Origin: Eubacterium sp.
GTDB taxonomy: Bacteria > Bacillota > Clostridia > Lachnospirales > Lachnospiraceae
Direction: 5' to 3'
NCBI GenBank assembly: GCA_017445525.1
Contig: JAFSTZ010000086.1
Location: forward strand, 1-12,814
Length of the DNA stretch: 12,814 nt
Made by a program: the position numbers and the translations under genes. Below, one piece after another: positions 5,201-7,403 of the stretch (the first letter of the stretch is position 1; every line of letters starts with the position of its first letter). The notes beneath the pieces are model-generated. The model ran no database searches, was not told where the DNA came from, and saw only the letters and a list, made by a program, of their open reading frames with translations.

Positions 5201-5527
5201 ATGAATATCAGCAGCCTTTCGGCGATTCAAGGTCTTGAGAGTGTCAGCCGATATCAGACTACCAATCCTATACGACCGGAGACCAGAACGGAGAAGTCAC
5301 AAAGCTTTGATGCTCTGCTCAATTCCGCTATGGGACTGATTTCGGAGACTAATGATTACTCAAACAAGGTCGAGGAAGAGGAGATCAAGTTTGCTACCGG
5401 CGAGTCAGACAATCTTCACGATCTGATGATCGCCCAGCAAAAAGCCAGTGTCTCGCTTCAGTACACTGCAGCCGTCAAGAATGGCGTAGTTGAGGCGTAT
5501 CGGACGATAATGAATATGCAATTCTAA
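5201..5527 (+). CDS. fliE: Flagellar hook-basal body complex protein FliE
   Basis: FliE links the MS ring (FliF) to the rod (FlgB) and is one of the first proteins exported. At 108 aa it is family-sized. The N-terminal half is variable and polar; the C-terminal half has the conserved helix LHDLMIAQQKASVSLQYTAA followed by VKNGVVEAYRTIMNMQF to the end. GGAG (5191-5194) is 6 nt before the ATG. A 55-nt gap without evident features separates it from flgC. Downstream there is an unusually long 241-nt gap before fliF, described separately. Confidence 0.95.
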   Translation: MNISSLSAIQGLESVSRYQTTNPIRPETRTEKSQSFDALLNSAMGLISETNDYSNKVEEEEIKFATGESDNLHDLMIAQQKASVSLQYTAAVKNGVVEAYRTIMNMQF

Positions 5528-5534
5528 GCTACGG

Positions 5535-5555
5535 GTTCCGGCATAGTTCCGGCAT
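5535..5555. repeat. Tandem 10-mer at the left edge of the element
   Basis: GTTCCGGCAT occurs at 5535-5544 and again at 5546-5555, separated by one base. Each copy can pair with ATGCCGGA at 5740-5747, so the closing helix of the element has two possible registers. The first copy gives the longer helix. Confidence 0.8.
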
Positions 5556-5594
5556 GAGATACACACAGCAAGCTTGCTTGCATGTGGGTATCTC
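5556..5594. repeat. Hairpin A (16 bp) inside the fliE-fliF element
   Basis: GAGATAC (5556-5562) pairs with GTATCTC (5588-5594), CACA (5564-5567) with TGTG (5583-5586), and GCAAG (5568-5572) with CTTGC (5577-5581). The loop is CTTG, with one A/G mismatch and one bulged A. Its tip shares AGCTTGCT with the tip of the hairpin at 5660-5715. It has no following T run, so it is not an intrinsic terminator. Confidence 0.8.
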
Positions 5595-5659
5595 TGACGG
5601 GACGTGCGTCGAAGACGTCGCCAAACCACATGAGGTGTATGCTGCGTAGCAGCGGTAGA

Positions 5660-5715
5660 GCACCGTGTGCACAGATGTGCCGAGCTTGCTCGAGCACAGA
5701 TGTGGGCACGAGTGC
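5660..5715. repeat. Hairpin B (long imperfect, about 22 bp) inside the fliE-fliF element
   Basis: The arms pair as GCAC (5660-5663) with GTGC (5712-5715), CGTG (5664-5667) with CACG (5707-5710), CACA (5670-5673) with TGTG (5701-5704), TGTGC (5676-5680) with GCACA (5694-5698) and CGAGC (5681-5685) with GCTCG (5688-5692). Mismatched pairs TG/GG and GA/GA interrupt the stem, and single As at 5693 and 5711 bulge. The apical two-base TT would open by one pair to give a four-base loop. CACAGATGTG occurs in both arms. Confidence 0.78.
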
Positions 5716-5730
5716 GGATACACCGAATGC

Positions 5731-5749
5731 GGTCTGGCGATGCCGGACC
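5731..5749 (+). promoter_or_regulatory. Hairpin just upstream of the fliF ribosome binding site, competing with the closing helix
   Basis: GGTCTGGC (5731-5738) pairs with GCCGGACC (5742-5749): eight pairs including one T-G wobble, loop GAT. It uses the same bases (5740-5751) that pair with 5532-5544, so the two structures exclude each other. The Shine-Dalgarno-like GGAGG (5754-5758) begins five bases later. The pairing is direct observation; any control of fliF translation is inference. Confidence 0.45.
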
Positions 5750-5768
5750 CGGTGGAGGATATATACCA

Positions 5769-7403
5769 ATGATGGATCGGCTTGTGGCGATTCGTGACAA
5801 GCTACTTGCTTTTTGGAATCGTTATACGACAAAACAGAAGACAATAATCATCTGCGTGGCGCTCGCAATACTCTTTGCGATCGTCCTTTTGGCGTATTTT
5901 CTTACAAGACCGGTTTATGTGGATCTCGTTACTCTGAACGCCGATGCAGCCAGTGAGTTCAGAGAACAGCTCGATGCAGCAGGAGTGGATTATGAGGACG
6001 AGGCGATATCCACCGACAGGGTGAGATTCAGAGTTGAGCAGGGACAGTACTCTGACGCAGTGGTTGTTATGGGAGCCAACCAGATCACCGACAGTGAGGG
6101 TATGTCCTGGGAGGATGCTCTTCAGGAGGATATGACGACGACATCTCAGGTGCGTTCCGCAAAGATCGATCTGGCACTTCAGTCATCCATACGAACCGGA
6201 CTTCTGACATTTGACGGCGTAGAGGACGCAACAGTCTATCTGTCGAGGCAGGAGGATGATATGACGGTCTTCGCTGAGAAGGCGGAGGCATATGTCAGTG
6301 CGTCACTGAAGCTTGCCAAGGGCTACGAGATGGATCAGAATGTTGCCATGGGCATCGCATATTATATAGCAAATGCAGTTGGCAACAAAACTACGGACAA
6401 TATCATCATCACGGACACTACAGGAAATCTTCTGTACGGAAGCAAGGAGGACAACACTCTCGGAGGTTCCGTAACGGGCGTAAACGACTACCGTGAGAAA
6501 CTGCAGAACACATTTGCTAAAAATGTTGAGACCATGTTGAGAAAAGCAGGATGGGATGATGTCGAGATCGGAAAGAGTGCTATCAAGTTCCGTATGGACA
6601 AGATAGAAGAACTCGTAAAAACGTATACTGCAAATGAAGGAATGGAGCAGGGACTTTACTCTCATTCATATAACTATAAATCGACCGGCCAGTCAGGAAC
6701 CGGCGGTATCCCCGGAACGGATTCAAACGGAGATCTGACTGACTATCCTATAGTCGGAACCGGATCGACCAATACCGAGACAACTTTGGATAAATACGAC
6801 TACCTGCCCAATGAAACCGTAAGAAATATCGAGTACGAGGTTGGGGCGGTTGTTCCGGAGGAGTCATCTATCGGTATCATCCTCACTCACTATAATATAC
6901 TTCATGAGGAGACTCTTCAGGAGCAGGGAATGCTTGATGAGATATCTTTTGATGAATATGTTGAGCAGAATTCTGCAGCTACTCAGATAGAGCTTCCGAA
7001 CAGGGATGAACTCATAGAGCTTGTATCGGCGGCAACCGGTATAGCAACCGGTAATATCGATATCATGGCTTATGACCAGCCGGTATATGAAGCTGCGGAG
7101 ACGGGATCATTTTTCGATAATATAACCAATTATCTCATGGTGATCCTGACCGTACTCATTGCAATACTTTTGATATTTGTTATCATCAGAGGAACATCGC
7201 CGGTTGAGGTTACGGAGACTGAACCGGAGTTGTCAGTGGAGGATCTTTTGGAATCTACCAGGGATGATCATGAAGCTCTTGATGAGATTGAGCTTGAGGA
7301 TAAATCTGAAACAAGGATCATGATTGAGAAGTTTGTTGATGAGAATCCGGAAGCGGTAGCACTCCTGCTCCGTAACTGGATAAATGAAGATTGGGGTGGA
7401 TGA
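5769..7403 (+). CDS. fliF: Flagellar MS-ring protein FliF
   Basis: FliF forms the membrane ring that is the base of the flagellum and carries the FliG rotor. From the first of two adjacent ATGs (5769, 5772) the product is 544 aa, a usual length. A membrane segment lies at about 24-46 (IIICVALAILFAIVLLAYFL), then the YscJ/FliF ring-building domain. A low-complexity Gly/Ser/Thr/Asn-rich stretch follows in the middle of the periplasmic part. The second membrane segment is at about 455-472. The cytoplasmic tail ends ENPEAVALLLRNWINED, the canonical FliG-binding helix. GGAGG (5754-5758) is 10 nt before the first ATG. The open frame continues upstream to 5667 through the structured element, but those 34 codons lack conservation and a ribosome binding site, so they are left out. 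Confidence 0.96.
   Translation: MMDRLVAIRDKLLAFWNRYTTKQKTIIICVALAILFAIVLLAYFLTRPVYVDLVTLNADAASEFREQLDAAGVDYEDEAISTDRVRFRVEQGQYSDAVVVMGANQITDSEGMSWEDALQEDMTTTSQVRSAKIDLALQSSIRTGLLTFDGVEDATVYLSRQEDDMTVFAEKAEAYVSASLKLAKGYEMDQNVAMGIAYYIANAVGNKTTDNIIITDTTGNLLYGSKEDNTLGGSVTGVNDYREKLQNTFAKNVETMLRKAGWDDVEIGKSAIKFRMDKIEELVKTYTANEGMEQGLYSHSYNYKSTGQSGTGGIPGTDSNGDLTDYPIVGTGSTNTETTLDKYDYLPNETVRNIEYEVGAVVPEESSIGIILTHYNILHEETLQEQGMLDEISFDEYVEQNSAATQIELPNRDELIELVSAATGIATGNIDIMAYDQPVYEAAETGSFFDNITNYLMVILTVLIAILLIFVIIRGTSPVEVTETEPELSVEDLLESTRDDHEALDEIELEDKSETRIMIEKFVDENPEAVALLLRNWINEDWGG

Follow-up and report, generated by a model that had tools for sequence, protein, structure and literature searches.

The window analysed here is a 12,814-nt contig of Eubacterium sp. 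(Lachnospiraceae) in which Pfam matches give the gene order topA, codY, flgB, flgC, fliE, fliF, fliG, fliH, fliI and fliJ, the names flgB and flgC being assigned through rod-protein domains together with gene order. Between the end of fliE (5527) and the ATG of fliF (5769) lies a gap of 241 nt, the length given in a preliminary description of this DNA, and the Pfam borders of the two genes agree with it. With ORF starts taken as listed, the other intergenic distances from codY to fliJ are 80, 55, 21, 35 and 42 nt or overlaps, all below 100 nt as had been stated there for flgB to fliK. The gap is also richer in GC: the hand count of about 59% corresponds to a computed 0.595 for 5532-5751 (0.581 for the entire fliE-fliF gap), compared with 0.473 for the whole window and, in the two adjoining genes fliE and fliF, 0.471 and 0.467 respectively. 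No promoter-like or intrinsic terminator-like site was found in 5450-5800, and the element occupying the gap is probably transcribed as part of the flagellar operon. Upstream of its ATG the fliF frame (5667-7403) stays open well into the element and reaches back as far as a GTG at 5667, so that a gene caller may place the fliF start too early. The features of the region are listed in Table 1.

Table 1. Features of the fliE-fliF intergenic element and its neighbours, in window coordinates
Feature	Position	Strand	Basis
fliE, upstream neighbour	5201..5527	+	Pfam FliE, 92.5 bits
Whole element, old MITE copy, ends drifted yet paired	5528..5753	+	MFE helices; homologues occupying the same gap in L015, L017, L019 and L023
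Terminal stem, 5' side (place of the terminal inverted repeat)	5532..5544	+	Pairs with 5740-5751
Arm A, long hairpin with G(CTTG)C loop; sequence varies among copies	5546..5603	+	MFE; other copies
Small hairpin, form CGnCGAAGnCGTC private to fliE-fliF copies	5606..5618	+	Copy comparison
Arm B, closed by 5619-5631/5727-5739	5619..5739	+	MFE
CATGAGG, 5' half of conserved motif	5629..5635	+	ATGAG invariant in 13/13 cores
Hairpin GCTGC(GTA)GCAGC	5641..5653	+	100% of cells paired, 3/5 pairs with two-sided changes, 13 cores
Conserved linker GGTAGA, 6 nt	5654..5659	+	TAGA invariant in 13/13 cores
Long hairpin, G(CTTG)C-type loop	5660..5715	+	22 pairs, 14 two-sided, 95.6% of cells paired, 13 cores
CCGAATG, 3' half of conserved motif	5723..5729	+	CGAATG invariant in 13/13 cores
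Terminal stem, 3' side	5740..5751	+	Pairs with 5532-5544
Likely fliF ribosome-binding site GGTGGAGG	5751..5758	+	Sequence; adjoins foot of terminal stem
fliF, downstream neighbour	5769..7403	+	Pfam YscJ_FliF, 104.6 bits

The minimum free energy (MFE) of 5512-5770 is -132.1 kcal/mol, against a mean of -88.8 for 200 dinucleotide shuffles (z -8.62), none of which is as low; this bears out the earlier statement that such compact nested folding is unlikely by chance. The MFE structure also contains helices matching those previously described, namely the 12-bp ends, a 16-bp hairpin, the small hairpin and the junction. The terminal stem is composed of 5532-5536/5747-5751 and 5538-5544/5740-5746 with one bulged base, the 16-bp hairpin is made up of three runs inside 5556-5594, the junction helix is 5634-5640/5718-5724 and the hairpin that follows it is closed by 5641-5645/5649-5653. 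The facing GA and GA of the CATGAGG/CCGAATG motif could form tandem G-A pairs. The opposite strand folds equally well (z -9.04), and the strand therefore cannot be read from folding alone.

A DNA search identified four more places in the source genome, with matches in 5 of 61 genomes, source genome included. Thirteen cores were aligned: the window copy, ten sequences from this search and two (L017 and L023) from a fliE search; L005 and L012, which are short, were left out, as was L014, a duplicate. A covariance model, R1, built on these cores gives 70 matches in 14 of the 39 genomes of the genus, including 14 in the source genome G000 (window copy counted), 18 in G007 and 15 in G022, although the sole matches of three of the 14 genomes (G016, G020 and G024) overlap matches of another family, Clostridiales-1, described below. 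Among 299 genomes drawn from the bacterial family, 15 carry R1 matches. Covariation, which the preliminary description had proposed as a check on the helices, is found: 27 of the 42 pairs in the 13 cores changed two-sidedly and 94.4% of cells pair, compared with 24-25% when partners are shifted by one column. None of 500 shuffles reaches the covariation score, though 27 of them match or exceed the number of further pair types.

The dispersed family is a MITE. Its elements are non-autonomous, of about 180-230 bp, and have a body with a branched fold; complete copies elsewhere end in GTTACTATTCACGG...CCGTGAATAGTAAC, an inverted repeat whose two halves pair mutually. The 14-mer end repeat, allowing at most one mismatch, occurs at 63 places in G000, 123 in G007, 33 in G022, 14 in G009 and 5 in G015, whereas the reversed 14-mer used as a control is found 0, 2, 0, 1 and 0 times respectively. 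Two ends were located in 55 rows; this set retains at least seven rows that were paired falsely, through an inner repeat or because one place has a second end. Identical 8-mers lie directly outside both ends in 14 of these rows, against 0.1 expected from re-paired flanks; a match of 4 bp is seen in three rows (0.4 expected) and one of 9 bp in a single row. Six copies of G022 (L116, L117, L118, L120, L121 and L122) are 93.8-100% alike and occupy different sites, and in internal-deletion derivatives (L165-L169, L192) little remains beyond the ends. A search for homologues, also proposed earlier, has thus yielded dispersed relatives with inverted ends and 8-bp target duplications. Of the two readings that the preliminary description had left, a mobile palindromic element and a structured RNA retained in the flagellar transcript, the former accounts for the origin.

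Several further features of the dispersed copies were observed. In L105, L107, L058, L059, L116 and others, the arm A sequence diverges strongly while the ends are the same and each copy has a near-perfect long hairpin. L168 (G000:C131) and L169 (G000:C339), which lie on two contigs, are different internal-deletion derivatives set within the same flanks, a sign that strains may be mixed in the assembly. In G007 (L163:547-1473, contig C39) a 216-aa reading frame is enclosed by two end repeats with a spacing of 927 nt; it may be a captured gene, or the repeats may be two separate relics. By eye the protein does not resemble a transposase and it was rejected as one.

The arrangement of neighbouring genes, recorded for 56 of the 70 model matches, is co-directed in 19, reversed in 8, divergent in 13 and convergent in 8, one side being missing in 8 (labels of the window copy and of L007 were set by hand). 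No orientation bias is claimed because 5 of the 19 co-directed cases are the fliE-fliF site itself. In the same 56 matches the homologues adjoin unrelated genes, with no consistent link to one gene class. A cis-regulatory RNA made by the host, such as a riboswitch-like fliF leader without transposon origin, would agree with the compact nested fold, the conserved internal loops and the recurrence at the same gene pair in five species; since homologues lie by unrelated genes in all orientations and have transposon-like ends with duplications, such an origin is very improbable. A riboswitch or operon-specific leader as such was rejected on these unrelated neighbours and transposon ends.

The window copy itself carries neither the family end sequence nor a recognisable target duplication, and its membership in the family rests on core homology. 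Its ends have drifted to the GCTACGGGTTCCGG type and are still paired. It is therefore an old copy, in which the ends changed and their pairing was kept. To follow its history, 36 loci encoding a FliE relative were collected and the gap was measured in 34, two Gemmatimonadetes loci being dropped. A homologous element fills the fliE-fliF gap in the window and in L015, L017, L019 and L023. The empty gap for which a comparison of related strains had been recommended exists in L016 (21 nt) and L018 (23 nt). Deletion remnants are present in L021, where TAAGCTACGG and CACCGAATGCGGT, two pieces of the element as seen in the window, survive, and in L022, where TAAACCTACGG of the L023 element does; the L020 gap contains the end of a different copy. 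As the element is missing or broken in 5 of these 10 species, it is not indispensable. The fliE-fliF gaps of the more distant L042 (221 nt) and L046 (486 nt) hold other structured inserts, with CATGAGC...GCGAATG arms.

The ten species form one FliF clade (100/98) that includes the pairs window+L015, L017+L019 and L022+L023, in a tree where L023 covers only a third of the columns. This tree needs two label changes and therefore does not by itself prove a single insertion. In the core tree, where L023 and L007 have long branches, the five copies fall into two groups (window+L015 and L017+L019+L023), with dispersed copies unresolved beside one of them, a topology that is compatible with one origin. 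The form CGnCGAAGnCGTC of the small hairpin, found in 5/5 fliE-fliF copies and in 0/30 dispersed complete copies, speaks for one origin of the five. The gap could alternatively be a favoured target that was hit independently, its conservation reflecting young copies. The separation of the two groups in the core tree, the foreign end in L020 and the other inserts of L042 and L046 point in this direction. However, the private hairpin is common to all five copies, these start right at the fliE stop without the end sequence of the mobile family, and L021 and L022 retain pieces of their neighbours' element. Repeated insertion is consequently improbable.

Sequence divergence around the element is high. 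At 4-fold degenerate sites, window and L015 are 40% identical in fliE and 39% in the first 180 codons of fliF; the comparisons with L017, L019 and L023 give 19-42%. The synonymous sites beside the element are near saturation. In the element body, by comparison, identity to the window copy in paired and unpaired columns is 63% and 78% for L015, 69% and 80% for L017, 68% and 80% for L019, and 51% and 64% for L023. Covariation extends to the five fliE-fliF copies, in which 43 of 88 pairs are two-sided, 87.2% of cells pair and none of 500 shuffles reaches any of five measures; helix 6, in arm B, is paired in 97.8% of cells. L015 is a weak point, its alignment breaking 19 of 87 scored pairs. The reading as a structured RNA retained in the flagellar transcript fits the window copy as far as retention goes, the element being common to related species despite drifted synonymous sites; the function that it implies is conjectural.

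These arms might nevertheless be those of a functionless old MITE, kept complementary at the DNA level by template switching or arm-to-arm conversion. The principal doubt about a role in the mRNA comes from the scarcity of G-U pairs, which number 65 of 2401 in 30 copies as against 278 of 1808 in shuffles. Selection at the RNA level alone would give otherwise, and the identity of the arms is apparently maintained at the DNA level too. Two-sided changes are moreover far more numerous than one-sided ones, both strands fold about equally, and half of the ten species have lost or broken the element. Conversion between arms would, however, leave unpaired motifs unprotected, and these are also kept: ATGAG, TAGA and CGAATG are invariant in all 13 cores, and unpaired columns are 78-80% identical in the comparisons with L015, L017 and L019, where 4-fold sites are at 19-41%. 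In addition, the closest copies (at least 98% alike) differ by single, not double, changes. A neutral relic is on balance rather unlikely.

A source of movement was looked for among transposases. Of 39 genomes, 14 are hit by the IS66 family model; G000 and G007, which carry most end repeats of the five genomes searched, are not among them. The 23 loci matching this model include only one, L211, with the end repeat on both sides, and two (L215 and L216) with the repeat on one side. L211 is 2231 bp long, has GTTACCATTCACGC at both ends and encodes a 544-aa transposase. Its IS66 transposase domain (PF03050) scores 63.7 bits for a cut-off of 23.1, and NF033517 scores 165.6 bits, below the NCBI IS66 cut-off of 180. 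Its ends agree with those of the MITE at 12 of 14 bases, and at 13 of 14 with MITE copies having GTTACCATTCACGG. The protein is present in 3 of 39 genomes, whole in G015, broken on two contigs in G011 and as a fragment in G022, and all three have R1 matches; no transposase of this type was found in G000 or G007. Of 7996 candidates scored, 1742 are relatives of the protein at E <= 1e-20. An 8-bp target duplication is absent at L211, the single complete copy, whose flanks are unlike, and the flanks of the G011 ends, on two contigs, are unlike as well. The likely source of movement is an IS66-like transposase that acts in trans and belongs to elements whose ends closely resemble those of the MITE.

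Searched at the gathering score, Rfam gives nothing in the window. Clostridiales-1 (RF01699) is the only family that matches; the window scores 24.1 bits and L007 scores 37.2 bits (E 8.3e-5), both below its gathering score of 48 bits. Clostridiales-1 appears among the candidate RNAs of 2010, for Clostridiales and the human gut (PMC2864571); PMC4081043 has no passage about it. It is dispersed in the genus: matches at E <= 0.001 occur in 28 of 39 genomes and matches over the cut-off in 19 of 39, with up to 27 per genome. Head-to-tail runs of three or four copies with a period of about 155-160 nt occur at G016:C22:15395-15858, G024:C12:24590-25056 and G020:C9:51169-51799. Forty Clostridiales-1 copies were fetched (L231-L270, for instance L239, L249, L258 and L261), and both 17-bp inverted ends, TGATGYCAGGGTCAA and TTGACCCCAACATCA, were located in 21 of them. 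Twelve of these 21 are immediately flanked by identical 5-mers (1.1 expected), while 3 match at 6 and 1 at 9. With such inverted ends and 5-bp duplications, Clostridiales-1 behaves as a MITE whose ends and target length differ from those of the window family. If the element were an independent small-RNA gene of the Clostridiales-1 type, this would explain why RF01699 is the sole Rfam family to match the window and L007. The sub-threshold scores of both, the transposon-like ends and duplications of Clostridiales-1 itself and the lack of promoter- or terminator-like sites around the element make this highly unlikely.

The two families nevertheless share motifs. The strict pattern ATGAG...CGAATG is found in 32/40 Clostridiales-1 copies, 15/30 window-family copies (28/30 in a looser form) and 10/2000 random 225-mers. 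Applied to the 40 Clostridiales-1 loci, R1 gives a best E of 0.15, although some of its genome-wide matches, with E 9e-6 to 8e-4, coincide in part with those of Clostridiales-1. The + strand is the more stable by folding energy in 28/31 window-family and 39/40 Clostridiales-1 copies, a weak strand call because the copies are related and the other strand folds too. More speculatively, the body could be a selfish module of structured RNA that rides on more than one transposon frame, acts in host mRNA, for example by protecting or processing it, and was adopted by the host at fliE-fliF. The frames would be the IS66-like one (GTTAC ends, 8-bp duplications) and that of Clostridiales-1 (TGATG ends, 5-bp duplications); common to both are the CUUG-loop hairpin and the CATGAG/CGAATG arm, parts that should be dispensable for a transposition that depends on the ends.

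Most likely, the element is a MITE that has been kept between fliE and fliF as a structured part of the mRNA, where it may have a function. The MITE would have entered the gap in an ancestor within the ten-species clade of Eubacterium-like Lachnospiraceae. The terminal repeat of the inserted copy would then have drifted, so that the window copy is probably no longer mobile, and the copy would have been inherited, its fold being kept in 5 of 10 species through compensatory change while synonymous sites drifted. There are hints that the host now uses the fold at this site. The terminal stem and long hairpins could form, within the flagellar mRNA, a barrier or a processing site, for example for RNase III, that would separate the fliE and fliF segments and set their relative mRNA levels. 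RNase III cuts mRNAs with Correia elements (PMC10969869; PMC2649163). This barrier or processing role is a tentative proposal. An effect on fliF translation is also possible, as the likely ribosome-binding site is found at the stem's foot and AGGAT (5756-5760), which overlaps it, pairs weakly with 5521-5525 at the end of fliE in the MFE structure. Taken together, MITE origin, an IS66-like partner and an inherited, retained copy with a presumed role in the mRNA form an account that we consider probable.

These observations give an origin for strongly covarying candidate RNAs of gut Clostridia: the window family and, apparently, the uncharacterised Clostridiales-1 are transposable elements, and covariation alone is therefore no proof of a host RNA gene. 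They also provide a natural experiment: at a single place of the flagellar operon, one element is present in five species, survives as pieces in two and is absent from two more, a set that allows testing how a mobile structured RNA affects an operon. In the titles and visible abstracts of open-licence literature, supplements aside, nothing was found on the window family, on a structured fliE-fliF element or on a tie between Clostridiales-1 and transposition, and papers naming both IS66 and MITEs do exist. This absence is a weak sign that the family is new.

Among known systems, Clostridiales-1 shares with the window family a long hairpin with a CUUG-type loop, the CATGAG...CGAATG arm, paired ends and dispersal in the same genus. 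It differs in its end sequence, in its 5-bp rather than 8-bp duplications and in an additional arm and 3' hairpin, and the window scores under the RF01699 cut-off. The candidate partner L211 resembles IS66 elements by its PF03050 domain and an accessory ORF. Classical IS66 elements end in GTAA, unlike the GTTAC ends of the L211 type, and the NF033517 score falls short of the IS66 threshold. The 8-bp duplications of the window family match those given for two IS66 elements, ISPpa5a and ISPpa7 (PMC3281130). Like Correia/NEMIS of Neisseria and ERIC of Yersinia, MITEs with an action in mRNA, members of the window family are small, non-autonomous elements with paired ends and many copies in transcribed intergenic regions. 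Ends and hosts are different, however, and in the window family the whole body, not the ends alone, has nested covarying helices and conserved internal loops, one copy being common to several species at a fixed place.
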